In this document: one piece after another, positions 1 through 20,060 of the stretch
Layout: every line of letters starts with the position of its first letter
Position numbering within the stretch: the first letter of the stretch is position 1
IMG/VR virus record: IMGVR_UViG_3300010158_000405
Location: 1 to 20,060 of that record
DNA: 20,060 bases
Origin: a virus
Strand: one strand, 5' to 3'
Notes under the pieces: generated by a model
Database searches by the model: none
Told to the model about the DNA's origin: nothing
The model's input: only the letters and a program-made list of their open reading frames with translations
Made by a program: the position numbers and the translations under genes

Positions 1-201
1 ATCCATCGTAGTGATATTAAGGCTATTGCGATTATGATGCCAATCACCCATAAAGATACCTGTATCACAACCTTCCTCCTTTGCTTTAGCAATGTACCAG
101 TCTACAAAATCTTCACAGTCTTGGTTGTGTACTGAGCTGTTAGATTTCAATCCAAAATGTATGTCCGTAAAACAGGCAACTTTTTTAAACAGATTACTCA
201 C
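1..201 (-). CDS. gp47: Recombination endonuclease subunit gp47 (SbcD/Mre11-like), 5' part
   Basis: Only the first 67 codons are in the window; the gene runs off the left edge. The translation begins MSNLFKKVACFTDIHFGL and continues to GIFMGDWHHNRNSL. These match the first two metal-binding motifs of the calcineurin-like phosphoesterase fold: D-x-H (Asp13, His15) and G-D-x-x-H (Asp53), as in SbcD, Mre11 and T4 gp47. In T4, gp47 pairs with the ATPase gp46 to process DNA ends for recombination-dependent replication and host DNA breakdown. I chose GTG at 201-199 because it is preceded by a strong ribosome binding site, the D-x-H motif lies 12 residues in, and the next in-frame Met is residue 51. 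The gene overlaps the end of gene 55 by 8 bases, so the two are probably translated from one message. The 55-47 neighbourhood is typical of T4-like phages. gp46 would be expected further left. Confidence 0.85.
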   Translation of the reverse strand, partial: MSNLFKKVACFTDIHFGLKSNSSVHNQDCEDFVDWYIAKAKEEGCDTGIFMGDWHHNRNSLNITTMD

Positions 202-1042
202 TAGTTTCTTCCCCCGCACGTTTCAAAGCGGCCGCATGTTCACCAGCACCAGTTCTACTATAACTTGGGTTCATACCATTCATTTCTAGAATATCATCGC
301 GGATGTTCTGATTGCGTTTTTCTATATTAATGACACGTACAAAACTATTAGTAACAGCGGCAGTAAAATACGCAAAAGGGTTGTCTGATTTTGATTCATC
401 AAATTGAAGTCCTATTTGTGTTAATTGCAAAATGGCTTGACCTTTCATCTCGTCGTTGTATGTGTAGCCACGAACGTTGCCGCGAGTAGCGTACCTCTCA
501 CATAATTTTAACATCATACGAGCCAAGGTGTTAGTTATTTGGCCCGCATCCTTGTCAAACTTGCCCTTTTCCAAGTCGCCTTTCCAGTGACTCTTACCAA
601 CACAAATCAGTGTTCCGCCTGTTTCATCATCAAACTTCCAATGTTGGAATGGTGGGAAATTGACTTTGTCTCTATGGTCGGCAAGACTTTTGGGATTCTT
701 TTTGCGTACATTGTTCAAAGGAATGTGATCAAAGGTCATGATCCTAAATACTAGGTCTGTCTTTTGGATCTTTTTGTAGTCAACTTCACAGTCTGCCTGT
801 TTGACTTTCTCGCCAGCTTTTTTGCGAGTAGCGTATGCTAGGTCGCCGATACGTTTGGCTTGATTACGCTTGGCCTCTGCTATTGTTCGAATATTGATTT
901 TATCTATGCTTGGTAGTATGATATCATACTGGTGATATTCAGGTTTGGTAAAGCTACAAAAACTTGTTTTACTTCTGTGTATTTCTAGCAACATATCTTT
1001 GTTGTTTAGATAATTCACTTTTACGGGGGTTGTTGGTATCAT
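194..1042 (-). CDS. gp55: RNA polymerase sigma factor for late transcription, gp55
   Basis: The 282-residue product carries the gp55 signature in its C-terminal third: YTYNDEMKGQAI (193-204), FDESKSDNPFAYFT (214-227), then FVRVINIEKRNQ (234-245). This corresponds to the region-2-like core of T4-family late sigma factors, which binds the polymerase beta' coiled coil and recognises the TATAAATA element. T4 gp55 is about 185 residues. Here about 100 extra residues, roughly 45-160, rich in Lys, Arg and Asp, separate an N-terminal segment from the core. The T4 protein ends in a hydrophobic tail that binds the sliding clamp gp45. The C-terminus here (ending KRAGEETSE) is polar, so clamp contact may differ. 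The ATG is preceded by AGAGGA at 1056-1051 (8-base spacing) and by a well-formed sigma70 promoter. The gene overlaps gp47 downstream. Its targets are probably the late motifs at 1093 and 6572. Confidence 0.85.
   Translation of the reverse strand: MIPTTPVKVNYLNNKDMLLEIHRSKTSFCSFTKPEYHQYDIILPSIDKINIRTIAEAKRNQAKRIGDLAYATRKKAGEKVKQADCEVDYKKIQKTDLVFRIMTFDHIPLNNVRKKNPKSLADHRDKVNFPPFQHWKFDDETGGTLICVGKSHWKGDLEKGKFDKDAGQITNTLARMMLKLCERYATRGNVRGYTYNDEMKGQAILQLTQIGLQFDESKSDNPFAYFTAAVTNSFVRVINIEKRNQNIRDDILEMNGMNPSYSRTGAGEHAAALKRAGEETSE
208..215 (-). promoter_or_regulatory. Ribosome binding site for gp47, supporting a GTG start
   Basis: Read on the minus strand, GGGGGAAG lies six bases before the GTG at 201-199. 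It is inside the last codons of gene 55. This purine-rich stretch is the best evidence that GTG, rather than the internal Met at codon 51, is the start of gp47. Confidence 0.6.
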
Positions 1043-1064
1043 CCTTAGAGTCCTCTAATGTCTA

Positions 1065-1093
1065 ATTATAAACTACGTAGTTAATAAAGTCAA
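1065..1093 (-). promoter_or_regulatory. Sigma70-type promoter for gene 55 (and 47)
   Basis: On the minus strand a -35 box TTGACT (1093-1088) is followed by exactly 17 bases and a consensus -10 box TATAAT (1070-1065). It points at the gene 55 start at 1042, so transcription would begin near 1058. One mismatch in twelve positions at optimal spacing makes this a strong candidate for a host-polymerase early or middle promoter. It lies in the only sizeable non-coding gap on this side of the gene. No experimental start site is available. Confidence 0.7.
1071..1082. promoter_or_regulatory. Perfect 12-base palindrome in the promoter spacer (possible operator)
   Basis: AACTACGTAGTT is its own reverse complement and fills most of the 17-base spacer between the -35 and -10 boxes of the gene 55 promoter. 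A dimeric repressor bound here would block polymerase. It has no loop, so it is not a terminator hairpin. The operator role is inferred from position only. Confidence 0.35.
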
Positions 1094-1100
1094 ATAAATA
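1093..1100 (+). promoter_or_regulatory. T4-type late promoter element for the tail/baseplate operon
   Basis: AATAAATA differs at one base from the T4 late consensus TATAAATA. It lies 24 bases before the ATG at 1125, leaving room for a start near 1106 and the AGGGG ribosome binding site at 1111-1115. The same core with a preceding C recurs before gene 6. It abuts the -35 box of the divergent gene 55 promoter. Confidence 0.65.
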
Positions 1101-1124
1101 ATACACCAAAAGGGGATTATTATT

Positions 1125-2102
1125 ATGGCAGTTACTGGTGCAAGCGGTTTAGTAAATATTGGTACAAGTGTTAACAAGTTAGCAGGCGCCGCCACTTCCG
1201 CAGTGGGTGCAGTAAGCCAGTTAGGATCCGCAATCAGAACAGGCGGGTTTTCACTTGCTGATTTACCAAGAGCCGGCGAAATTGCTGGAGATCTATATGC
1301 GGCAGTGGCCGCATTTACCGACCTTGAAGGCGAAAACGAATGGCGGGTACGGTTAAGTTTACCAACATGGCCCAGTTTTAGAACAAGTCCTGTATTGAAA
1401 CCGTTAAGTGATGCAGGCGGTATGATTTTTCCTTATACTCCAGAAGTACAAACACAATCAATAGCCAAGTATCAGGCTCTTAATCTTACTCATACAAATT
1501 ATAATTTTCAGGCTTACCAACACAGTGAACCTGGACAGATAACTATTACAGCCCCAATGTATGTTGAAGATCGAACTCAGGGTCTTTACTGGATTGCGGC
1601 CATACACTATTTAAGATCCTTAACCAAAATGTTTGTAGGAAATGATCCAAAGGCTGGCAATCCTCCTCCAATAGTATATCTTAATGGATATGGAAATTAT
1701 GTGTTTAACAATATTCCTGTTGTCGTAACAAATTTTACAACCACACTGGCTAAAGATTGTGATTATATCAGTGTTCCAGTAGTTGGCAGTGCCGCCGGTG
1801 CTGTTCAAGGCGTAACAGATGCTATAGGCGGACTTGCAGATGCATTTGGTGGTTACGGCGGAATTGCTGGAATTTCACCCAGCGATGTAGGAGCACTTGC
1901 CGGAGGAATAGGACAAGTGGCAGCATTAGGCTCGTTGTTTGGCATTGGTGGAGAAACACCTGGAGGTGACAGTTATGTCCCAACGAAGAGTTCATTCAGT
2001 GTTACACTACAGCCAATGTACAGTAGAAATTCAGCACAAAAATTCAGCCTTGATAGATTTGTTACAGGTGGATACTTGAACACCGGACCAGGATATATTT
2101 AA
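1125..2102 (+). CDS. Baseplate tail-tube junction/initiator protein (gp48/gp54-like)
   Basis: The 325-residue product opens the structural operon. Its core (about 70-220 and 284-325) is beta-rich: EWRVRLSLP, a FPYTPEVQTQ strand, NYNFQAYQHSEPGQITI, the aromatic helix GLYWIAAIHYLRSLTKMFVG, then PPPIVYLNGYGNYVFNNIPVVV, and a C-terminal FSVTLQPMYSR. From memory this pattern belongs to the tube-like proteins capping the baseplate hub in myoviruses, on which the tail tube polymerises (T4 gp48 and gp54). The match is by pattern recall, not alignment. Two Gly/Ala-rich stretches stand out: residues 1-68, and 221-283 inserted between two core strands. AGGGG at 1111-1115 precedes the ATG, and the late motif at 1093 would drive it. 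Gene 53 follows after one base. It could instead be another hub or tube-like baseplate protein. Confidence 0.55.
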   Translation: MAVTGASGLVNIGTSVNKLAGAATSAVGAVSQLGSAIRTGGFSLADLPRAGEIAGDLYAAVAAFTDLEGENEWRVRLSLPTWPSFRTSPVLKPLSDAGGMIFPYTPEVQTQSIAKYQALNLTHTNYNFQAYQHSEPGQITITAPMYVEDRTQGLYWIAAIHYLRSLTKMFVGNDPKAGNPPPIVYLNGYGNYVFNNIPVVVTNFTTTLAKDCDYISVPVVGSAAGAVQGVTDAIGGLADAFGGYGGIAGISPSDVGALAGGIGQVAALGSLFGIGGETPGGDSYVPTKSSFSVTLQPMYSRNSAQKFSLDRFVTGGYLNTGPGYI

Positions 2103-2103
2103 T

Positions 2104-2403
2104 ATGGCAACATACAGCAAAACTAGCCCCTACCATACTACTCCTGTAGTTAACACATACCTTGATATTTTGAATATCAGATCAGTTAGTTCCAATGTTG
2201 ACGATTTTTTGTATACCATACAACCGCAATACACCTATCGACCAGATTTATTAGCACACGATCTCTACGGCGATTCAACGTTATGGTGGGTGTTTATACA
2301 ACGCAATCTTGATGTGTTGCAAGATCCTATTTTGGATTTTGTACCGGGTACACAAATCTATATTTGCAAACTTAGCGAACTAACACCAGCACTGGGTATA
2401 TAA
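2104..2403 (+). CDS. gp53: Baseplate wedge subunit gp53, short form
   Basis: At 99 residues this is about half of T4 gp53 (196 residues). The conserved block is clear: YTYRPDLLAHDLYGDSTLWW (43-62), followed by FIQRN and by DPILDFVPGTQIYI (74-87). In T4-like phages gp53 clamps neighbouring wedges together around the hub, completing the six-fold baseplate. The full-length protein ends in a LysM-like domain. Here the chain stops soon after the PGTQIYI strand, so that domain is missing or reduced to one element. AGGA at 2090-2093 is the ribosome binding site. The gene starts one base after the upstream stop and ends two bases before the next ATG, indicating translational coupling. The stop is clean, with no LysM coding sequence continuing downstream. 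Confidence 0.8.
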   Translation: MATYSKTSPYHTTPVVNTYLDILNIRSVSSNVDDFLYTIQPQYTYRPDLLAHDLYGDSTLWWVFIQRNLDVLQDPILDFVPGTQIYICKLSELTPALGI

Positions 2404-6547: not shown

Positions 6548-6571
6548 TTAACTATGCACTTAATTTTATTC

Positions 6572-6579
6572 AATAAATA
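6572..6579 (+). promoter_or_regulatory. Second T4-type late promoter element, before gene 6
   Basis: AATAAATA, preceded by C, lies in the 50-base gap between gp25 and gp6, 18 bases before the gene 6 ATG. Identical in its eight bases to the element at 1093-1100, it lies in the only other gap long enough to hold a promoter on the plus strand. AGGA at 6588-6591 is the gene 6 ribosome binding site. It probably gives a second entry point for transcription of the two largest wedge genes. Confidence 0.6.
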
Positions 6580-9500: not shown

Positions 9501-10095
9501 CAGTTATGATACAGCGTACCGTCAATGGGTCTCTGCCAAAGGAGTCGGAGCAGAACCATTGCCTCCAAGCTCAGATGCGTTGAATAATTTATTATCAGGT
9601 AAATTGGATCTTATAAAATCCATAAGCGATGAAGTAATATATCATCCAGTAAATTATGTATTGTTATTTGGTAAACAATCTGATCCCAGCTTACAAGCCA
9701 CATTTGAAGTAATGATTAATCCTAGCTCTACAGTATCTAATGCTAATGTACAAGCTAGAATATTAACTGCAATAAATCAGTTTTTTGCTTTGGAAAATTG
9801 GAATTTTGGAGATACGTTTTATTTCACAGAGTTATCTACCTACGTAATGCAACAGTTATCACCAGATATAATTAGTCTAGTCATTGTTCCAAATCAAACA
9901 GGACAGTATTTTGGTAGTTTGTTTGAAATCAAATGTCCAAGCAATGGTATATTCTTAAGTTGCGCTACCACAACCGATATTGTGGTTGTAGCAGGCCTTA
10001 CAAACACAAATTTAAAAACAGTTACAGGCACTGGGCTGGCATCATTGGTTACTAGTCAACAAATTACCAGCGCAAATTACGGAGCAAATAGTTAA
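6598..10095 (+). CDS. gp6: Baseplate wedge subunit gp6, enlarged
   Basis: The N-terminus is diagnostic of T4-like gp6: YDFENLRRTMIDYIRVNFPE, SEYLALIDLIAFVGQSIAFR, then RENFIETAERRSSLLNLSQL (residues about 30-105). A phage baseplate J-like core follows, with RMITGEDYNISPLSASLQVA near 433-452, and the C-terminal block GDTFYFTELSTYVMQQLSPD occurs near 1074-1093. gp6 forms the dimeric backbone of each wedge and the iris ring around the hub, binding gp25, gp53 and gp7. T4 gp6 is 660 residues; this protein is 1165, and much of the extra length lies between about 480 and 720 (Thr/Ser/Gly-rich, roughly 8035-8760) and in additional beta segments to about 1000. It has its own late promoter candidate. 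The stop overlaps the ATG of the next gene in TAATG, coupling the two. Confidence 0.88.
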   Translation: MSSTTRQNNLLLSEDWKKIYQTFTNADFTSYDFENLRRTMIDYIRVNFPEDFNDYVESSEYLALIDLIAFVGQSIAFRVDLNARENFIETAERRSSLLNLSQLVSYVPSRSTSASGLLKVGTVTTTENVTDSNGRNLSGQTIAWNDASNTNWYDQFIRVLNAALPQTQQFGNPIDSATVYNIPTAQYRFNATNTNIPVFSFTANVAGRGMPFEIVSTAFAGQDYIYEETPKAGNSIACVYLDDGYGAGSPTTGFFFRFVQGSLNQGTFTVTNPTTNEVVNIDAQNINDSDVWLWQLNQNGLEDTLWTKIPALTGNNIIYNNLNQNTSTVYSVTTRVNDTISLNFADGVFGKIPLGTFKAYYRVSNNLSYAVNPTDINNISITIPYLNSAGGNETLVITLSLATSVANATSAESNASIKQNAPQTYYTQNRMITGEDYNISPLSASLQVAKVKAINRTSSGISRYFDLTDPTGKYSSTNLFADDGIIYRQDYTSGTTFTYLTTTDIQGVLDNVVTPILEDPNLRNFFYQNFISYITTSLNVAWYSITTDSNSSTGYVGGTTGATPYPVGSYTLTDLLYVTVGSLVKFVAPLGYYFNTIKNNELTAYTGSVPVNGTLYMWAGVVAIAGDGTASGTGKLSTGFGPITLSKSIPNLVTRTGIVAPVLTQIVPQFSTTLTSSIKAQMIDLISANSAFGLRYDAPTQSWQIIYSSNINSSGNFSLNYQGNNANAQLDASWFLLFTTNTQTYTITQRSTRYIFESDKEVIFYFDTTNKIYDKVSSKTIVDYIKILNVNTQPGVTSNFTTDLQWEIVSEYVGADGYIDPKKIVITFADPFNTGVVDNPQLFLDFVAPTVAPLENKFIVQKKYIISVGQEDYRYVYNNPTTGPVVILATEGLIYPLTKWKDGQYFYFIDTQTVVQYIASTGSYSPTLDYRVYSGRDKIRFQYTHSADYNARIDPSSSNIIDIYVLTNSYDTAYRQWVSAKGVGAEPLPPSSDALNNLLSGKLDLIKSISDEVIYHPVNYVLLFGKQSDPSLQATFEVMINPSSTVSNANVQARILTAINQFFALENWNFGDTFYFTELSTYVMQQLSPDIISLVIVPNQTGQYFGSLFEIKCPSNGIFLSCATTTDIVVVAGLTNTNLKTVTGTGLASLVTSQQITSANYGANS

Positions 10096-13000
10096 TGGCT
10101 AACGAAAATAATCCAACTGGTAAACCCAGCCTTGGTATAAATTTCCTACCAGATTTTTATCAAACCCCTGCAAACAAAAAGTTCCTACAATCTACAATAG
10201 ATCAGTTGTATCAACCAGGTACATTGACCAAAACTAGCGGTTTCATAGGAAGAAAAAATGCCAAGGCCGCAAAAGGTACTGATGTTTATGTTAAGTCTGC
10301 TAACGATACACGACAAAATTATCAATTAGAGCCAGGACTTACTGCTAAAGATTCGTTGGGTAATATAACTTTTTTCAAAGACTATCAAGATTACATTAAT
10401 CAATTGGGAGTATTTGGCGCAAACACAACAAAGCACGACAGACTTAACAAACAAGAATTTTATTCTTGGGATCCACATATCGACTGGGACAAGTTTGTAA
10501 ACTTTCAAAATTACTACTGGCTACCGTACGGCCCTGAACCTATCAACATTTACGGACAACCGATCAATATAGAAAGTACATATACCGTTGGTGTTGAATC
10601 GGCTGGCAATGCTAATCAGTATATTTTTATACCTGACGGATTGGCACCTAATCCTATATTAAAACTCTATAGAGGGCAAACTTACGTTTTTGAGATTTCT
10701 AGCGAAGGCAATCCTTTTAGCATCAAGACTGCACGTAGCATTGGAATTACAGATAGGTACATAACATCGGACATCAGCGATTATGGTATCGAATCAGGTA
10801 CACTGGTATTTACAGTGCCGACAAATGCTCCTTCTATTCTGTTTTATCAAAGTGAAACAGATATAAATTTAGGCGGCGCAATCGAGATTCATGATATCAC
10901 CGATGCGAGTGTGTTGGATATAGACAAGGATTTGCTTGGTAAAAAAAGTTACATGCTATCTGATGGAACATTCCTTAGTAACGGAATGAAATTAAAATTT
11001 AATGGCAATGTGACCCCAGCCAGTTATGCATCGGGATTATATTATGTTGAAGGCGCCGGAGTTGCCATCAAACTAGTACCAGAAAAATTATTAGAAATAG
11101 TAAGCCCATATACCACAAGTCAAAACATATTATTTGACGCTACCCCGTTTGATCAGTATCCGTTCGACGATGCTACGGGATTTAGTTCTCTTAAAGATTA
11201 CGTAGTAATCAATCGTTCAAGCCGAGATCATAATCCGTGGAGTCGATACAATCGTTGGTTCCACAAGGATGTTATCGATATCAGCGCAAAATACAATAAC
11301 ATTGCGTCTAGCCTAGATCAGTCTGCCAGAGCTAATAGACCGATAATCGAATTTGAAGCAGATTTAAAATTATATAATTTAGGTACAACCTCTATCTCTG
11401 ACACACATTTGGTAGATGATTTTACAACTGATGTATTTTCTCTAATAGAAGGATCACGAGGATATAACATAGACGGTGTAAGTTTAGCACCGGGGTATCG
11501 TGTTCTATTCACAGCTGATACAGACCCGCTGGTATTCGGCAAAATTTTTGAAGTAAGTTTCATTAATATTAGCGGGTACGGACAAATACATTTAACTGAA
11601 GTTGCCACACCTGAATTAAACCAGTCTACCATTATCCTAAAAGGATTTAAAAATCAAAGTTCGATGTATTGGTACAACGGATCTGCATGGGTCAAAGGCC
11701 AGCTAAAGACAACCATCAATCAAGCACCGTTGTTTGATATCGTAGACAGTAACGGTGTCAGTTATTCAGATACATCTGTATATAATGGTTCAACATTTAC
11801 TGGCACCGGCTTATTTTGTTATAAAGTTTCATCTACGGGGTCTAAGGATACAGTATTAGGATTTCCATTAAGCTATCAAAATGTTAATAATATCGGCGAT
11901 ATCGTCTTTAGTTTTAATCTAGCGTCTGACAAATTCCAATACAAAGTAGGAACCAATGTCATCACTAAAAACACATCGGCAGGTTACTTACTGAGTAAAA
12001 CGTATGCAGGTATCACTCAGTATCTCAATGGTTGGCAAGTTTCTAAAGCTACAGCAGTACAAGCCGCTATTAGAATTTATAAAGATTCCAATCAAACGAA
12101 CAATTTTAATATTGATACATTTGATGACATCAACAATCTAGCAGATTTGGTAATAAAAGTCTATGTCAATGGCATTTATTTGCAATCTTCTAAGTATTCG
12201 ATAGTTACCACTTCGGTTTACAAATCAGTTTTGCTAAAAACTCCTATTGCACTTACTGATATTTTAACTATCAAAGCCTACTCGTCACAACCAATCAATA
12301 GTAACGGGTACTATGAGATTCCTTTGAATTTACAAAATAATCCGTTAAACGATGCCATGATAGATTTTACACTGGGCGAAGTTAGCGATCATGTGGAATC
12401 AATGATTGAAAATATTTCTACATTTGTGGGAGTGTTTCCAGGCGCGGGCAATTTGAGAGATTTAGGAAATATAACTGCTTACGGTACAAAGTTTGTACAA
12501 CACAGCGGTCCAGGCAGTCTTAGCCAATACCATATCACATCGGAATCTCATAACATTGTTAAGGCTATCGAACGTAGTAGAAATGACTATGGGTCTTTCA
12601 AACGTAATTTTATAGAAATATCTGGATCGTTAGGATTAAACACAGATACAATTACTCATGTGGATTTAGTTCTTCAAAAGCTAAATGAAAATAAACCTAA
12701 AACTGCTCCGTATTATTTTAGCGATATGGTACCATATGGTGCAAGTATAGTAACAGATTTAACCGTAGTGGATTACAGGATTAAAAATTATCCATTGTCT
12801 TCTGTATTTTCTTTGGATAACCTGTCTAATAAAGCTGTAAGTGTTTATCATACAACTACACTGACCGGCAAAAAAATCCAATTAATATATGAAAGAGATT
12901 ATGTATTTAATAGTCAGGGATTTATTACTATACAATCTGCTGTAGCATTGGCTACAGGCGATATTATCACAACTATTGAATATGATAATACAGACGGATG

Positions 13001-16000
13001 TTATGTTCCAGAAACACCGACAAAATTAGGGTTATGGCCAAAGTTTGTTCCACAGATTTATACAGATACATCTTTAATAACTCCTTTACAAATGATACAA
13101 GGGCATGATGGAAGTCAAATATTATGCTACGGCGATTATAGAGATGAGTTGTTACTAGAATTAGAAATAAGAATATATAACAACATCAAAGTTGCATACG
13201 ATCCAAATATTTTTGATATTAACGATATCCTTCCTTCTTATATTCGCACTCAAGATTATACGTTAGACGAATTCAATCAAGTATTGGCACCTTACTTCTA
13301 CCAATGGGCAGGTTTAGTAGGTGTTGATTTTTCACAACACATCTCGTTTGATAGAACAAACAGCTTTACTTACAATTATTCTAATAACAAGTCGCCGACT
13401 CAGACAGTAATACCAGCCTACTGGCGCGGCATATATCGATATATTTTAGATACAGATCGTCCAAATCAATGTCCTTGGGAAATGTTAGGGTTCAGTGTAG
13501 AGCCAACTTGGTGGACTGGAGTATACGGGCCGTCACCGTACACTAGTGATAATTTAATCCTATGGACTGACCTCGCTAACGGTATAGTAAGACAGCCGGG
13601 TATACCTGCATATACACTTGCAAAATACAAAAGACCGTTTTTATTAAAACATATTCCAGTCGATAGCTCGGGTAATTTAAAAAGTCCGCTAGTATCCGGA
13701 TTGGCCCAAGGCACAATTACACAGAATATTGATAATAATTTCGTATTTGGCGATGTGGGCCCGGTTGAGGCAGCCTGGCGTAGGAGCAGTTATTATCCGT
13801 TCAGTGTGTTAATTGCAAGTATGTTGTTGACTCCTGCAAATACTTTTGGACTGTTATTGGATAGATCGAGAATTGTACGTAACAAGGCAGGACAACTTGT
13901 TTATAAAGATACAAATTTAAGAATTCGCCCTGCAGATCTAGTTGTTCCTAATATCTACGCAGACGCAGTTCGTACACAAACTGCGGGTATTATTAATTAT
14001 GTAGTAAATTTAATTACCAATTTAATTTTTAGCAATAACTTAGATAGTTTTAATGCATACAAAAGTGATTTACAAAATTTAATACCTCGACTAAGCTATA
14101 GACTGAGTGCATTCACCAATCAAAATCAATTTAGCTTGTTGTTAGAATCTAAAACACCACTAGCAACGGGTAACGTGTTTATTCCTACGGAAAGTTATAG
14201 TGTGTTTTTGAATAGTTCAAGTCCTGTGACAAAATTAACATATAGTGGTGTGGTAATTACCAAGCTATCAACGGGGTTTGAAATTAAAGGTTACAGCAAT
14301 TCACAACCTTATTTTAAATATTACGATTATTTTTCTTCTGGAAGACTGGTAAATGTTGGCGGAATCAGCGATAGCTTTGTTGATTGGACACCAAATCAAC
14401 AGTACATCTCCGGGCAGATTGTAAAATATGCAAGTGCCTTTTATATTGCCAAGACAAACATTGTTGCCGGCACATCTTTCGCAGCCACTAGTTTTACAAA
14501 AATCGATAACTTGCCCATAGTCGGCGGTGCAAATGCTTATTTTAGAACACATTGGGATAAAAGTACAGAACTTACAGCACCGTACGGTACCGTATTTGCC
14601 ACTATTCAAGAAGTTGTTGATTTTCTTTTAGGTTACGAGCAATGGTTAATGGATCAGGGATTTGTATTTGAAGAATTTAATAACAACTTAGCCGTAGTTG
14701 CAAACTGGCAAACCAGTGCTAAAGAGTTTATGTTCTGGACTACACAAAATTGGTCTACAGGTCAACAGTATTGGAGCGATTGGCTACCAAGCCAGCCTTA
14801 TACTTACGGCACCATAGTGCGTCATGACGGATCATATTACACTGCCGCGTTCAATCTACCTGTTAATCCTGTTTTTGATGTAGATCAATGGACATTACTA
14901 GCCGGTTTATCAAATGTTGGTGGAAGTGTCATAAGTTTGAGCCCTTCGGCGAATGGTGTATCGTTTAAAACTAATCTCACAGTTGTTGATGATATTACTA
15001 ATATTTTTAATAATTACGAATTTTTTAAAGTTGATGGATCAACTATAAAACCTACAGAATTGGATTCGTACAGAGACGGAAATGTCGTTACGTATAGTCC
15101 ACGAACTACCGATGGAATTTATGGTGCTACATTCTATCTAATACAAAATGAGCATGTAGTTATAATAGACAACACTGATATATTCAACGATGTCATCTAT
15201 AGTCCTACTAGCGGATATCGAAGAGACCGTATCAAGGTATCTGGATATGTAACTAGTGGTTGGTATGGTGGTTTAGATATTCCAGGATTTATATTTGACT
15301 CTGCCAAAGTTTTCAACTGGCAACCTTATACAGATTATAATTTAGGTGATATTGTTTACTACCAAGGTAATTATTATACTGCAAATAGTGGTTTAGCCGG
15401 TACCAGTTCTTTCATAGCATCTTATTGGAACAAACGTAGTAAAGCACCCAGCTCTGAACTGCTTCCAAACTGGACAAATTCTGCAACACAATTTACAGAT
15501 TTTTATAGTTTAAACGTAGATAATTTTAATTCACAATACCAACAGTTTGCACAGCACTTAATTGGATATCAGTCAAGACAATATCTTCACAACATAATCC
15601 AAGACCCTGTAAGCGAATTTAAATTTTATCAAGGAATGATACGTGAAAAAGGAACACGAAATGTTCTAAATCATTTGTTTGGTGCATTAAATGTAGACAA
15701 AGTGGATAGTTTAACATTTTACGAAGAATGGGCGTTGCGGGTTGGTCGATACGGCGCAAGCGATGCTTTCGAAGATTTTGAAATCGTATTAGATGAGACA
15801 TTATTTAAAAATAATCCTCAAGGCTATGCATTGGTGAATAGAAAAGATAACAATATTAGTAATTTTGTTATTCAACAGACGCCAAACGACATCTATGTTA
15901 AACCTTTAGGCTATGAGTCGTCTCCGTTTCCAACATCAACAAATCTAACGCCGTTGCTAAGAAATGCAGGTTATGTGAATCCTGCTGATGTAAAATTTAG

Positions 16001-19000
16001 TTTAAAAACTATAGATGATATCACCAATATAGATATTTCACAACTGTCAGAAGGACAGTATGTATGGTGCTCTTTTGAAGGTGCCAGTTGGAATGTATAT
16101 AGATTTACAGATTTACTAATACGAGCTAGCGGTGTTGTATATGATAACGGTGTGCTAACAGTCACGACACAAAGTATTGTGCCATTAACAGTTGGGTCAT
16201 ATGTTGGCCTAAGTCTTGCTAGTGTGGGCTCTGCTACCCCGGATCCAATTAATGGTTTCTATCAGATAGCATCTGTTAAATTGAATTCTTTCACAATTAA
16301 AACAACAAAAAATATAGTTTCGCCGTTTACAAAAACCAATCAGCTGGTTATATTTTCATTGGTATCTCGTAAAATTAACAACCTTGATATTTTAGATTCA
16401 TTGCCATTGGCACACACTCTTTCAGGAGATTTGGTGTGGACAGATGATGATGGATCTGGGGCATGGGCAGTATGGAAGTATGCTCCGGTTTACAAACAAA
16501 AAACATTACCCAATCTTAATCCGCAAAGCGGATTGGCAAACGGCTCTTCCATTGCAATAAACAAACAGGGTAACATACTGGCAGTGGGTAATAGTCAAGG
16601 ATATGTAACAATATATGATAAAGTTGGCTCGTCGGTGGGATTCACACAACGAGCCACATTGAATACACCATTCCTTGCATTTAACGATACAGTGAATCCT
16701 GGTAGAAATGTAAAATTATCTCAAGTGGGCACAGTCTTATCTTTGAGTTCCGATGCCACTTGGCTAGTTGCCGGAAGTCCAGCAGTGGGATATGTCGCTA
16801 CAAGTTTTAAAGGAACATATTCTAGCATAACATCCTATGCTATTAATTCCATAGTGTCGGTAACCACAGGTAGTAGTAAAGCATATTGGCAAGCAGTATC
16901 GGCAGTTCCCGTCAACAGTATTCCTGCCGTCAATTCAATTTATTGGGAATCTATTCCTTATATTCCTGTAAGTCAAGCAACGGGTAGTAATTCCACATTA
17001 GCTTCACAGGGTGTTATAAGTTTATATAAAAAATCTTCGAATGACAACTATATTTTTATTGATTCCATAATAAGTCCAATCCCTGCGGCCAACGAACAAT
17101 TTGGCTCTAGCGTTGTATTTGGTACAGATGCAATGTATGTGGGCGCTCCTGGTTATAATAGTGGTATTGGTCGTGTGTATAAATTTAAGTATACTACTAT
17201 TCAATATGCCAGTACAGTATATAATCCCAACGGTAGTTCTAAAAATGTGATAGCTGTGGCATCCACAGCAGGCGTCCGCGCTGGTATGACCATAAATGGA
17301 ACTGGGTTCAGCGGACAGATAGTTAATGCATTATTAATTAAAATTAGATTGGCTGTAAATAGCTCGGGCAATACAGTCAGTATCAACAATCCAACATTAA
17401 CACCTACCAACTTGTCAGTAGGTATGACTGTAACTGGCCCTGGAATTTTATCAGCTGCCAACATATATTCGTTGGGAGTTGAACAAGTATTAGTTACCGG
17501 GGTTTATAGATCTTATAATTATATTGTTATATCCAGTTTGCAAGATGTAGATGCATCCATACTAACACAGGCCACATTTAACGGTGACAATAACCTAACA
17601 TTCTCAGTATTACAACTTAATTTTACTCCGTCGGTAGTTGGGTTAAACACATTGTTGCTTAATGAAGTTCCGGATAGCACTCCTAGTGGCATATTAACTT
17701 TTACAGAAACTACTTGGGCTTACGATTTTGCATATAACTTTGTTGGAGCGTCTAACAACAAGATTGGTTATACATTAGCTACCAGTAACAACGGAAACTT
17801 TTTGGCCATTGCCGCCGTCGGCCAGACAGTATCGGTTTATAAAAACAATATACTAGTTCAAGCAATACCTGCTCCAGCGAGATTACCAACACAAAGTTCT
17901 GCAACATCGTGGGGGCAGTCGATCACATTTAGCGATAACGGCGAATATTTTGCAGTTGCAGATCCAATTGCTCCGCTAGGTGCGTTGTATGAAGGGTTGG
18001 TAAAGATATATCGTTATAACAGCACTGACTACACATACCTATCAACATTGACAAACCATAATCCGCAACAAAACGGACAGTTTGGCAGCACGATATCTTT
18101 TATGAATGACTACAAGACACTAGTTGTCTATAGTAAGAACGGCGATACTTCTACTGTTAGAAATTTTGATAACGGTACAACCACATTTGATAAAAGATCT
18201 ACTAATTTTACAGAAACCGAATCTCGTGCAGGCAGAGTAGATGTTTATGATGTTTATAATAATATTTGGGTATTTAGTGAATCGTTACCGTCAAACAATT
18301 TACCTACTGATTTATATGGTGTAGGAGTTGCTGTGGGATCAAATAACGTTGTAGTTAGTGCTCCAGGGGCGCTAGACGGTAAATTATTATCGGGGCAAGT
18401 GTACAGTTACAACAAACAGCCAAACAAATATACATGGTCAATATTTCAACAACAGACCACATTAGCCGATGTTAGCAAAATTAAAAAAACATTTATATAC
18501 GATAAAAAATTAGAAACACTAACAACTTATCTTGATGTTATAGATCCTCTACAAGGAAAAATAGCAGGCCCTGCCGAAGAAGAATTGGCTTACAAAACCT
18601 ACTACGATCCAGCCATATACAGTTACAGTATCAATGTGAATGCAACCAGTGATACTACCAGCTATTGGGACTCTCCGCAAGTTGGTCAGCTGTGGTGGGA
18701 TTTAAGAACTTGTAAATTCCGTGAAAATCGATTTAAGGATTTTAATTATAGAAACAACACATGGAATACACTTGCAACTGGGGCTTCTGTAGATATTTAC
18801 GAATGGGTAGAAAGTAATTTAAAACCCAGTGCCTGGGATGCAACTGCTGATACACCCACCGGGTTGACAAAGGGCATAAGCGGTAAAAGTTTACATGGTG
18901 ATACTGCATACAGCATGTTAGAAAAGTATGACACCACCAGTAAAGTCTTTAGTAATTTATATTACTTCTGGGTAAAAAATAAAAAAATAATACCTAATGT

Positions 19001-20060
19001 TCAGGGCCGTTACATGGCAGCAAACGATGTTGCGAAACTTATCGCCAGCCCACGAGAACAGGGATATGCATGTTTGGCGATTACCGGCGCAGACTCGTTC
19101 AGTCTTATAAATTGTGCCAAATATCTTAAAGACTTGGATCGAGTACTGGCTATAGAATATTGGACCGTGGATAAAACGGATCAATCGATACATAGCCAGT
19201 GGAGTTTAATCAGTAACGACACTATAGTAGATCTTCCATCAGTTGTTGAAGAAAAATGGATAGATAGCCTATGCGGAGTAGACGCCGGCGGTAGAGCAGT
19301 TCCAGATCCGTTGTTGCCGACAAAACTTCGTTACGGTATTGAAAACCGTCCTCGACAGAGCATGTTTATCAACAGAATTGAGGCATTAAAAGAATTTATA
19401 GAACGTGTTAACCGCATATTGATTACTCAGCAAATTGTTGAATCTAGAAATATAAGCGATTTAGAATTAAAAGATCCTATTCCGACAACATTGAGCGGAT
19501 TATATGATAGATCCTATGATACATATTTGGATTTTACCACCAATCAAGGTGCGGTATCATCTACCTTACCAGTACTTGTTCCTGTAATTGTGAATGGTAG
19601 AATTCAATCAGTCACAATAAGCAATGCAGGTAAAGGATATATTATAGCTCCAACAATATCTATTATTGGTACCGGAGAACATGCTGCCGTAGTTTGTAAA
19701 ATTAATACCGCAGGACAAATCACATCCGTAGAAGTAAAAAATTCAGGTTATGGATATAGCAACACCACACAGGTAGTTGCGAGAGATTTTGCGGTACTTG
19801 TAAAAAGTGATTCAACTACTGGGGATCTTTGGAGTATATATGGATTCAATTCTGTTGACAACGTATGGAGTAAAATTCTCACACAGTCGTACAATGTCAA
19901 CAATTATTGGAGCAAAGTAGACTGGTATCAGACTGGGTTCAGTCAGTATAGTGCGGCCGATTATGCAGTGGCTACACTTGCAGATCTTTCTTCGGTAAAG
20001 TCCACAGTGGGTCAACTTGTAAAAGTATTGACTGCCAATGCTGGCGGCTGGTTATTGCTA
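10095..20060 (+). CDS. Giant baseplate/virion structural protein, at least 3322 residues, runs off the right edge (gp7 position)
   Basis: The frame starts at ATG in TAATG at the gp6 stop (GGAG at 10081-10084) and stays open without a stop to the window edge; I read it codon by codon. It lies where T4 has gene 7 (wedge initiator, about 1030 residues) but is over three times longer. Motifs I recall from large structural proteins of marine T4-like phages run along its length: HNPWSRYNRWFHKDVI (about 380-395), IQGHDGS and GDYRDELLLELEIRIYN (1001-1031), PWEMLGFS (1127-1134), TIQEVVDFLLGYEQWLMDQ (about 1503-1521), EFKFYQGMIREKGTRNVLNH (about 1841-1860), VGQLWWDLR, and RPRQSMFINRIEALKEFIER (3085-3104). 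Added modules: cupredoxin-like (189-266), three carbohydrate-binding-like repeats (1428-1782), a seven-blade FG-GAP-like region (2146-2774), and Gly/Tyr repeats (3166-3231). No signal peptide or enzyme motif was seen. Equivalence to gp7 is positional only. Confidence 0.85.
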   Translation, partial: MANENNPTGKPSLGINFLPDFYQTPANKKFLQSTIDQLYQPGTLTKTSGFIGRKNAKAAKGTDVYVKSANDTRQNYQLEPGLTAKDSLGNITFFKDYQDYINQLGVFGANTTKHDRLNKQEFYSWDPHIDWDKFVNFQNYYWLPYGPEPINIYGQPINIESTYTVGVESAGNANQYIFIPDGLAPNPILKLYRGQTYVFEISSEGNPFSIKTARSIGITDRYITSDISDYGIESGTLVFTVPTNAPSILFYQSETDINLGGAIEIHDITDASVLDIDKDLLGKKSYMLSDGTFLSNGMKLKFNGNVTPASYASGLYYVEGAGVAIKLVPEKLLEIVSPYTTSQNILFDATPFDQYPFDDATGFSSLKDYVVINRSSRDHNPWSRYNRWFHKDVIDISAKYNNIASSLDQSARANRPIIEFEADLKLYNLGTTSISDTHLVDDFTTDVFSLIEGSRGYNIDGVSLAPGYRVLFTADTDPLVFGKIFEVSFINISGYGQIHLTEVATPELNQSTIILKGFKNQSSMYWYNGSAWVKGQLKTTINQAPLFDIVDSNGVSYSDTSVYNGSTFTGTGLFCYKVSSTGSKDTVLGFPLSYQNVNNIGDIVFSFNLASDKFQYKVGTNVITKNTSAGYLLSKTYAGITQYLNGWQVSKATAVQAAIRIYKDSNQTNNFNIDTFDDINNLADLVIKVYVNGIYLQSSKYSIVTTSVYKSVLLKTPIALTDILTIKAYSSQPINSNGYYEIPLNLQNNPLNDAMIDFTLGEVSDHVESMIENISTFVGVFPGAGNLRDLGNITAYGTKFVQHSGPGSLSQYHITSESHNIVKAIERSRNDYGSFKRNFIEISGSLGLNTDTITHVDLVLQKLNENKPKTAPYYFSDMVPYGASIVTDLTVVDYRIKNYPLSSVFSLDNLSNKAVSVYHTTTLTGKKIQLIYERDYVFNSQGFITIQSAVALATGDIITTIEYDNTDGCYVPETPTKLGLWPKFVPQIYTDTSLITPLQMIQGHDGSQILCYGDYRDELLLELEIRIYNNIKVAYDPNIFDINDILPSYIRTQDYTLDEFNQVLAPYFYQWAGLVGVDFSQHISFDRTNSFTYNYSNNKSPTQTVIPAYWRGIYRYILDTDRPNQCPWEMLGFSVEPTWWTGVYGPSPYTSDNLILWTDLANGIVRQPGIPAYTLAKYKRPFLLKHIPVDSSGNLKSPLVSGLAQGTITQNIDNNFVFGDVGPVEAAWRRSSYYPFSVLIASMLLTPANTFGLLLDRSRIVRNKAGQLVYKDTNLRIRPADLVVPNIYADAVRTQTAGIINYVVNLITNLIFSNNLDSFNAYKSDLQNLIPRLSYRLSAFTNQNQFSLLLESKTPLATGNVFIPTESYSVFLNSSSPVTKLTYSGVVITKLSTGFEIKGYSNSQPYFKYYDYFSSGRLVNVGGISDSFVDWTPNQQYISGQIVKYASAFYIAKTNIVAGTSFAATSFTKIDNLPIVGGANAYFRTHWDKSTELTAPYGTVFATIQEVVDFLLGYEQWLMDQGFVFEEFNNNLAVVANWQTSAKEFMFWTTQNWSTGQQYWSDWLPSQPYTYGTIVRHDGSYYTAAFNLPVNPVFDVDQWTLLAGLSNVGGSVISLSPSANGVSFKTNLTVVDDITNIFNNYEFFKVDGSTIKPTELDSYRDGNVVTYSPRTTDGIYGATFYLIQNEHVVIIDNTDIFNDVIYSPTSGYRRDRIKVSGYVTSGWYGGLDIPGFIFDSAKVFNWQPYTDYNLGDIVYYQGNYYTANSGLAGTSSFIASYWNKRSKAPSSELLPNWTNSATQFTDFYSLNVDNFNSQYQQFAQHLIGYQSRQYLHNIIQDPVSEFKFYQGMIREKGTRNVLNHLFGALNVDKVDSLTFYEEWALRVGRYGASDAFEDFEIVLDETLFKNNPQGYALVNRKDNNISNFVIQQTPNDIYVKPLGYESSPFPTSTNLTPLLRNAGYVNPADVKFSLKTIDDITNIDISQLSEGQYVWCSFEGASWNVYRFTDLLIRASGVVYDNGVLTVTTQSIVPLTVGSYVGLSLASVGSATPDPINGFYQIASVKLNSFTIKTTKNIVSPFTKTNQLVIFSLVSRKINNLDILDSLPLAHTLSGDLVWTDDDGSGAWAVWKYAPVYKQKTLPNLNPQSGLANGSSIAINKQGNILAVGNSQGYVTIYDKVGSSVGFTQRATLNTPFLAFNDTVNPGRNVKLSQVGTVLSLSSDATWLVAGSPAVGYVATSFKGTYSSITSYAINSIVSVTTGSSKAYWQAVSAVPVNSIPAVNSIYWESIPYIPVSQATGSNSTLASQGVISLYKKSSNDNYIFIDSIISPIPAANEQFGSSVVFGTDAMYVGAPGYNSGIGRVYKFKYTTIQYASTVYNPNGSSKNVIAVASTAGVRAGMTINGTGFSGQIVNALLIKIRLAVNSSGNTVSINNPTLTPTNLSVGMTVTGPGILSAANIYSLGVEQVLVTGVYRSYNYIVISSLQDVDASILTQATFNGDNNLTFSVLQLNFTPSVVGLNTLLLNEVPDSTPSGILTFTETTWAYDFAYNFVGASNNKIGYTLATSNNGNFLAIAAVGQTVSVYKNNILVQAIPAPARLPTQSSATSWGQSITFSDNGEYFAVADPIAPLGALYEGLVKIYRYNSTDYTYLSTLTNHNPQQNGQFGSTISFMNDYKTLVVYSKNGDTSTVRNFDNGTTTFDKRSTNFTETESRAGRVDVYDVYNNIWVFSESLPSNNLPTDLYGVGVAVGSNNVVVSAPGALDGKLLSGQVYSYNKQPNKYTWSIFQQQTTLADVSKIKKTFIYDKKLETLTTYLDVIDPLQGKIAGPAEEELAYKTYYDPAIYSYSINVNATSDTTSYWDSPQVGQLWWDLRTCKFRENRFKDFNYRNNTWNTLATGASVDIYEWVESNLKPSAWDATADTPTGLTKGISGKSLHGDTAYSMLEKYDTTSKVFSNLYYFWVKNKKIIPNVQGRYMAANDVAKLIASPREQGYACLAITGADSFSLINCAKYLKDLDRVLAIEYWTVDKTDQSIHSQWSLISNDTIVDLPSVVEEKWIDSLCGVDAGGRAVPDPLLPTKLRYGIENRPRQSMFINRIEALKEFIERVNRILITQQIVESRNISDLELKDPIPTTLSGLYDRSYDTYLDFTTNQGAVSSTLPVLVPVIVNGRIQSVTISNAGKGYIIAPTISIIGTGEHAAVVCKINTAGQITSVEVKNSGYGYSNTTQVVARDFAVLVKSDSTTGDLWSIYGFNSVDNVWSKILTQSYNVNNYWSKVDWYQTGFSQYSAADYAVATLADLSSVKSTVGQLVKVLTANAGGWLLL
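10659..10892 (+). other. Cupredoxin-like module in the giant protein, ligands lost
   Basis: Residues 189-266 read as a small beta sandwich: LKLYRGQTYVFEIS, GNPFSIKT, SGTLVFTVPTNAPSILFYQS and NLGGAIEI. This is the pattern of the cupredoxin-like domains of marine phages, whose copper-competent form has HPF, then YYQC, H and MGG. Here the four ligand positions read Asn206, Ser253, Asp256 and Leu259, so metal binding is unlikely and the role is probably structural. Confidence 0.6.
14376..15440 (+). repeat. Three carbohydrate-binding-module-like (CBM5/12-type) repeats in the giant protein
   Basis: Three copies of about 43 residues share W-x-P-x3-Y-x2-G-x-I-V-x6-Y-x-A. Copy 1 is 14376-14507 (residues 1428-1471, DWTPNQQYISGQIVKYASAF), copy 2 is 14769-14900 (1559-1602, DWLPSQPYTYGTIVRHDGSY) and copy 3 is 15312-15440 (1740-1782, NWQPYTDYNLGDIVYYQGNY). 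The spacing of Trp, Tyr, Gly-x-Ile-Val and Tyr matches chitin-binding modules of family 5/12. Conserved structural sequence lies between them. Confidence 0.55.
16530..18416 (+). repeat. Seven FG-GAP-like blades in the giant protein (possible beta-propeller)
   Basis: Residues 2146-2774 divide into seven units, each with an aromatic/Gly opening, a strand, a turn, a second strand and a closing strand like VxxY. Openings are NGSSIAI, VGTVLSL, FGSSVVF, IGYTLAT, WGQSITF, FGSTISF and YGVGVAV; three units keep a GAP-like motif (VAGSPAVG, VGAPGYNSGIGRVY, VSAPGALDGKLLSGQVYSY). Insertions interrupt unit 2 (about 2237-2303) and separate units 3 and 4 (about 2367-2555). Seven units is the count of integrin-type propellers. 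Confidence 0.5.
19590..19787 (+). repeat. Two Gly/Tyr (SVTIxNxGxGY) repeats in the giant protein
   Basis: Residues 3166-3231 contain NGRIQSVTISNAGKGY and AGQITSVEVKNSGYGY about 38 residues apart, each followed by a beta strand (APTISIIG; NTTQVVAR). This repeat is frequent in phage tail and adhesin proteins. More copies may lie elsewhere in the unseen C-terminus. Confidence 0.5.

Follow-up and report, generated by a model that had tools for sequence, protein, structure and literature searches.

How does a T4-like phage tie the supply of its late sigma factor to the onset of its structural genes? The window analyzed here, a 20,060-bp stretch from an IMG/VR record, is a fragment of such a phage, in which the gene for a gp55-type late sigma factor and a baseplate/tail operon point away from each other across a short intergenic region. 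A sequence-only reading of this junction had proposed that a sigma70 promoter facing gp55 and a late promoter facing the tail operon are packed so tightly into 82 bases that the two polymerase complexes exclude each other, and that gp55-polymerase at the late site thereby shuts off gene 55. The 82 bases are simply the whole region between the two genes (1043-1124). Whether the two promoters merely share a small space or form a switch is the question addressed below.

Gene layout at the junction

The identification of the leftward gene as gene 55 is borne out by profile and structure-based matches, and the rightward operon is indeed a tail operon (Table 1): from 1125 it runs through a virion structural protein, a baseplate wedge protein, a baseplate hub protein and gp6, among others. 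Leftward, gp55 is followed by a gp47/SbcD-like gene at the end of the window. The gp55 of this clade carries an extra N-terminal domain of about 150 aa beyond T4 gp55, which is largely well modeled by AF2 (pLDDT mostly >90); in a Foldseek search with the gp55 model this domain found no convincing PDB fold match, and the sigma-2 part alone was matched (by T4 gp55). Transcripts from either predicted promoter would have a short leader that includes a good ribosome-binding site. The far end of the window is occupied by a single reading frame (10095-20060, >3,322 codons up to the window end) for a giant tail or baseplate protein, and the corresponding position in phage MIJ3 is taken by a gene of 11.6 kb. 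Blastn of the intergenic region against phage records gave no matches, and relatives were reached by protein searches.

Table 1. Coordinates of genes and regulatory elements in the window and, in the last row, in four relatives
Feature	Position	Strand	Basis or remark
Start of gp47/SbcD-like nuclease gene, next in gp55 operon	1..219	-	phrog_100 5e-19; synteny in named phages; cut by window end
gp55-type late sigma factor, 282 aa	194..1042	-	phrog_12791 E=1.6e-72; phrog_234 (residues 152-264) E=3e-26; T4 gp55 7d7c_F E=1.8e-6; AF2 model and Foldseek
Ribosome-binding site of gp55, AGAGGA	1051..1056	-	sequence
-10 box of gp55 promoter, TATAAT	1065..1070	-	sequence; conserved; predicted start near 1058
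Dyad TAAACTACGTAGTTAA, filling the -35/-10 spacer, centered 18 bp upstream of TAAATA	1069..1084	.	same element at gp6 and capsid late promoters
-35 box of gp55 promoter, TTGACT	1088..1093	-	sequence; conserved
Late box AATAAATA, core [AC]TAAATA at 1094-1100	1093..1100	+	conserved; start near 1106 predicted from T4 spacing (PMC1524935)
Ribosome-binding site of tail operon, AAAGGGG	1109..1115	+	sequence
Virion structural protein, first gene of baseplate/tail operon	1125..2102	+	phrog_12050 2e-44
Baseplate wedge protein, directly after the preceding gene	2104-2403	+	
Second dyad copy TTAACTATGCACTTAA, center 18 bp upstream of gp6 late box	6548..6563	.	
Late box AATAAATA of gp6 (gene starts 6598)	6572..6579	+	
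Small conserved gene (MSRPKPK..) in relatives	L087 329-613; L095 2890-3174; L105 18243-18539; L113 7317-7601		

Two conserved promoters back to back

The coordinates, strand, hexamers and 17-bp spacer given for the promoter pair in the sequence-only reading proved correct when checked on the sequence. With TTGACT-17-TATAAT, the gp55 promoter agrees with the consensus TTGACA-17-TATAAT at 11 of 12 positions, where at least 10 of 12 defines a sigma70 promoter, and it is one of the two best sigma70 matches in the 20 kb. Matches of at least 11/12 with a 17-bp spacer number 2, against 0.46 expected in shuffled 20 kb, and an abutting pair of sigma70 promoter and late box arose in 0 of 200 shuffles. 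This promoter probably drives gp47 (and gp46) too, and not just gp55.

On the other strand, the late box stands 24 nt ahead of the ATG of the tail operon and is an octamer of the T4 late type (TATAAATA-like, with NATAAATA or CTAAATA in relatives), an element that in this class precedes the start by about one turn; in Aeh1, CTAAATA is known as a variant of the late box (PMC1524935). In four large relatives, [AC]TAAATA is found on the sense strand within 45 nt upstream of 18/164, 32/146, 21/116 and 16/106 genes, where its overall density would predict about 1 and the antisense strand gives 4 to 7; many of the genes behind it are recognizable as structural. This strong enrichment points to a real late promoter class. 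The window copies standing before genes are two, at the tail operon and gp6; over the window as a whole (1-20060), the motif is depleted (4 copies, where first-order Markov shuffles predict about 17), a pattern resembling selection against stray late promoters. The claim that the -35 box and the late element share base 1093 is true as a position but carries little weight, since the late octamer begins with this base, and T4-like late promoters show little conservation at the corresponding position, -13 (PMC1524935); it is the conserved core that abuts the -35 box.

Late promoters are also arranged back to back with each other, as TATTTATC..CGATAAATA, between divergent genes of two relatives (L090, ~14468-14493; L101, ~1558-1579), making overlapping divergent promoters a recurrent layout. 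In four relatives, a late box is followed at once by TGCGTAC or TACGTAC before the small MSRPKPK.. gene, this element being downstream, not upstream, of TAAATA. We dropped TGCGTA as a candidate MotA box in view of its wrong position and the absence of a MotA homologue from the four genomes searched and MIJ3 (with T4 as positive control).

Conservation of the pair was gauged on 79 loci, namely the window and 78 gp55 loci with complete upstream sequence fetched from viral contigs, whose gp55, in the aligned set, is 80-92% identical to that of the window. All 79 have the block TATTTA[T/G]TTGAC-N18-TATAAT with identical spacing, single-base departures in the -35 and -10 boxes being rare; although the block search presupposed its general shape, every locus whose upstream sequence is complete passed it. 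In pairwise comparisons, the mean identity is 98.5% in the three boxes and 86% across the 36-nt block, as against 41% at four-fold degenerate gp55 sites, 50% in the 24 nt on the tail side and 39% in the 12 nt past the -10 box, and hence the block is under strong selection. The conservation in 79/79 loci is decisive evidence that the paired layout is real. The layout in which a full sigma70 promoter abuts the late box occurs once per genome in four large relatives, at the gp55-tail junction, with one poorly matching case elsewhere. The phages carrying the pair are a large, abundant group of uncultured freshwater phages.

A palindromic element shared with other late promoters

Conservation of the spacer in the gp55 promoter goes far beyond the needs of a sigma70 promoter. 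We rejected spacer conservation as a general feature of early promoters, because other TTGAC-17-TATAAT sites of the same genomes have different spacers. The 17-bp spacer instead owes its conservation to a dyad, absent from the sequence-only reading, that lies in it. Read on the tail strand, its consensus is TWAANTRC|GYANTTWA, with the center 18 bp ahead of the T with which TAAATA begins. When late promoters are aligned on TAAATA, the same dyad emerges before gp6 (51 distinct sequences) and the capsid gene (44), and the symmetry score peaks at -18 for the tail operon and gp6 and at -17 for the capsid gene, in each case as the clear best among 25 centers. At one mismatch or less, the motif has two sites in the window (tail operon and gp6) versus about 0.1 expected, and dyads with TAAATA 17-18 bp downstream are found at the tail, gp6 and capsid promoters and, in weaker form, before one additional gene. 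Because the consensus was derived from these very promoters, part of its fit to them is built in; independent support comes from the agreement in spacing among three unrelated intergenic regions and from the MIJ3-like group.

The gp6 and capsid promoters face no comparable opposing sigma70 promoter (gp6 of one relative, G001, has a weak antisense match, judged by eye). The MIJ3-like group, with its sigma70 promoter 36 nt away, has a dyad centered at -17 from TAAATA that is weaker and has TAAA/TTTA as its outer half-sites. The presence of the dyad at gp6 and capsid and its retention in the MIJ3-like group indicate that it goes with the late promoter, and we take the sigma70 promoter of the window clade to be laid over a late-promoter dyad. 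Its recurrence at gp6 and capsid makes it most likely the site of a dimeric factor. Many other late promoters are without it, so gp55 does not generally depend on it, and a search of the MIJ3 structural region gave no TAGCNGTTTA-type element. Among the small proteins conserved in G001, G002, G003 and G005, no candidate for a dyad-binding protein was found (Pfam search included). A possible candidate is the N-terminal domain of gp55.

An ancient gene pair with variable spacing

Tblastn with gp55 or the structural protein led to twelve named jumbo phages, all less than 60% identical: MIJ3, Deifobo, GAP32, SD-2_S15, pEa_SNUABM_19, Atu_ph07, Phosso, SCTP-2, Vibrio 2.275.O, XbC2, RaK2 and CBB. The divergent gp55-structural pair is retained in all twelve, and each gap has TATTTA pointing to the tail side and, pointing to gp55, a promoter of sigma70-like or middle-like type, the weaker gp55-side promoters being judged by eye. 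Almost all contigs related to MIJ3 gp55 likewise have both promoters. Thus, the prediction that related phages would keep both elements held in 79/79 close loci, 12/12 named phages and almost all of the intermediate contigs.

The distance from the late box to the -35 box is another matter: the two abut in the window clade, are a few nucleotides apart in the GAP32/RaK2 type and 36 nt apart in most MIJ3-like contigs, and lie much further apart in Sinorhizobium phage Phosso. Given this variation, the exact overlap is clade specific, and the comparison indicates that the divergent pair is ancient and the overlap a feature of the clade. It follows that exclusion is dispensable for the gene pair to work, which counts against reading the junction as a switch. 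The divergent arrangement is itself absent from T4, where gene 55 lies within a same-strand operon, and from cyanophage Syn33. The MIJ3 genome paper contains no promoter analysis, and no transcript map of the window clade was found in the searchable literature.

A putative early-to-late switch

Building on the observed boxes, their fixed geometry, and the dyad with its recurrence, we propose that the 82 bp act as a bidirectional switch from early to late transcription: sigma70 polymerase would be kept off the gp55-gp47 promoter by the late complex, to which a factor bound at the dyad may contribute; we put this at somewhat better than an even chance. Early in infection, host sigma70 polymerase on TTGACT-17-TATAAT would produce gp55 together with the downstream gp47 (and probably gp46) nuclease. 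As gp55 accumulates, gp55-polymerase would bind TAAATA on the other strand and transcribe the baseplate/tail operon, and growing late occupancy would close the sigma70 promoter. A dimeric factor on the dyad would help the late promoter and at the same time block the sigma70 promoter by sitting between its -35 and -10 boxes. Judging from general polymerase footprints, two polymerases should not be able to sit together on predicted starts near 1058 (minus strand) and 1106 (plus strand), about 48 bp apart, and it is from this geometry that we infer occlusion between the two promoters. When activated by the clamp, the T4 late complex protects 13 bp more on the upstream side (PMC2988020); such protection, if valid here, would extend further over the gp55 promoter.

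The mutual exclusion put forward in the sequence-only reading is thus supported in part: the divergent promoters are real and conserved, with predicted starts close together. Its specific claim, that gp55-polymerase itself shuts off gene 55, is weakened by the spacings in the MIJ3-like contigs and Phosso, which show the exact overlap not to be general, and by the dyad, since the switching may in fact be done by a different protein bound to the DNA. More tentatively, and with the chances somewhat against it, we suggest that a few late promoters carry an upstream palindromic activator site that at the gp55 junction is nested in the late sigma's own sigma70 promoter, so that one phage protein (or the gp55 N-terminal domain) would, in one binding event, turn on the major structural operons and turn off the early promoter. 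A point against any shutoff is its cost: gp46 and gp47 are expected to be useful late in infection, as in the recombination-dependent replication of T4.

It is also conceivable, though we think it unlikely, that the layout reflects compaction only, with each box conserved for its own use, physical exclusion having no regulatory role, and early sigma70 transcription being ended late by other means. Phage genomes are compact, the pair functions at other spacings in other clades, and gp55 competes with sigma70 for polymerase anyway (PMC2988020). Yet the offset is exactly fixed in 79/79 loci whose flanks have diverged to background, and the dyad is common to both promoters; free spacing should show drift of the gap, though a dyad tied to both promoters would also hold it. 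The dyad could, alternatively, be an early repressor site that keeps the main structural promoters silent until late. Fixed-position dyads near promoters are typical of repressors too, and the restriction of this one to the main structural operons would fit; however, with its center at about -28/-29 relative to the late start, a bound protein would not cover the late -10 box, late promoters are expected to be inactive early anyway for lack of gp55, and at the junction repression would extend, unhelpfully, to gp55 itself, all of which makes such a role improbable.

We give slightly less credence still to the gp55 promoter being of the middle type, with the spacer dyad as the site of its own MerR-like or MotA-like activator and the gp6 and capsid copies serving something else. 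Activators bound in the spacer do exist, as in the case of MerR, and gp55 of CBB and GAP32 stands behind a middle-like promoter class (PMC5259590). The -35 and -10 boxes of the window promoter are nonetheless near consensus at the optimal 17-bp spacing, unlike a T4 middle (MotA) promoter, in which a MotA box at -30 replaces the -35 box, and MotA profiles had no match in G001, G002, G003, G005 or MIJ3, with T4 as a positive control. Moreover, the dyad is also carried by late promoters with nothing comparable to this sigma70 promoter opposite them, and its distance to TAAATA is maintained even where the sigma70 promoter is 36 nt away. That the late box has no late function, being AT-rich by coincidence or extending the gp55 promoter in the manner of an UP element, is very improbable: its AT-richness and direct contact with the -35 box would suit this, but TAAATA is enriched genome-wide before genes on the sense strand, is kept at altered distances from the -35 box in other clades, and stands at late-promoter distance from the start codon of the tail gene. 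The switch from early to late transcription remains our preferred reading of the junction.

Comparison with known systems

The window clade shares with the T4 late system (gp55-gp33-gp45) the TAAATA box and a gp55 sigma-2-like factor. T4 late promoters are recognized by gp55-polymerase and activated by gp33 and gp45, and they have no conserved upstream or -35 sequence (PMC2988020, PMC7892883), whereas a few promoters of the window clade (tail, gp6 and capsid) have the dyad at -17/-18, a difference that calls for an explanation. T4-like late transcription is the textbook case of a bare TATA box sufficing, from which the dyad-bearing late promoters depart; they are a small set, belonging to the main structural operons, with one of them nested in the promoter of the late sigma itself. 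A further difference is the divergence of gp55 from the tail operon. The profile of the gp45 N-terminal clamp domain found no Pfam match in G001, G002, G003, G005 and MIJ3, with T4 positive; this agrees with the CBB report and may mean a diverged or different clamp or incomplete records.

In RB49 and the marine cyanophages S-PM2 and Syn9, overlapping early and late promoters give middle transcription (review, PMC2984593). These, too, combine a sigma70 and a gp55 promoter at one place, but both stand upstream of one gene, whereas those of the window face apart and serve two operons. For CBB and GAP32, three promoter classes have been described, with an ATAAATA late promoter at structural genes and, as in the window, gp55 behind a class of its own; the study treats the classes and not the gp55-structural pair as a switch, and its searchable passages do not mention an upstream dyad (PMC5259590). 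In the searchable literature, which takes in few subscription journals, we found no account of such a switch and none of a dyad upstream of gp55-type late promoters. If our proposal is true, a single site at the junction times the switch, coupling the supply of gp55 to the start of structural gene expression; divergent counterparts of the pair exist in culturable jumbo phages, where the switch is testable.

The best functional analogue, in our assessment, may be the A2c/A2b-A3 region of phi29, where p4 bound to inverted repeats represses the early promoters and activates the late one (PMC3100819). As in phi29, early and late promoters share one intergenic region, and the dyad at 1069-1084 is an inverted repeat that overlaps elements of the early promoter and lies upstream of the late one. 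The systems differ in that phi29 uses the host sigma factor for both promoters, together with p4/p6 hairpin DNA, whereas in the window a phage sigma factor is predicted for the late promoter, the box of which abuts the early -35 box. At the gp55 junction, the onset of late transcription would probably silence the early promoter.
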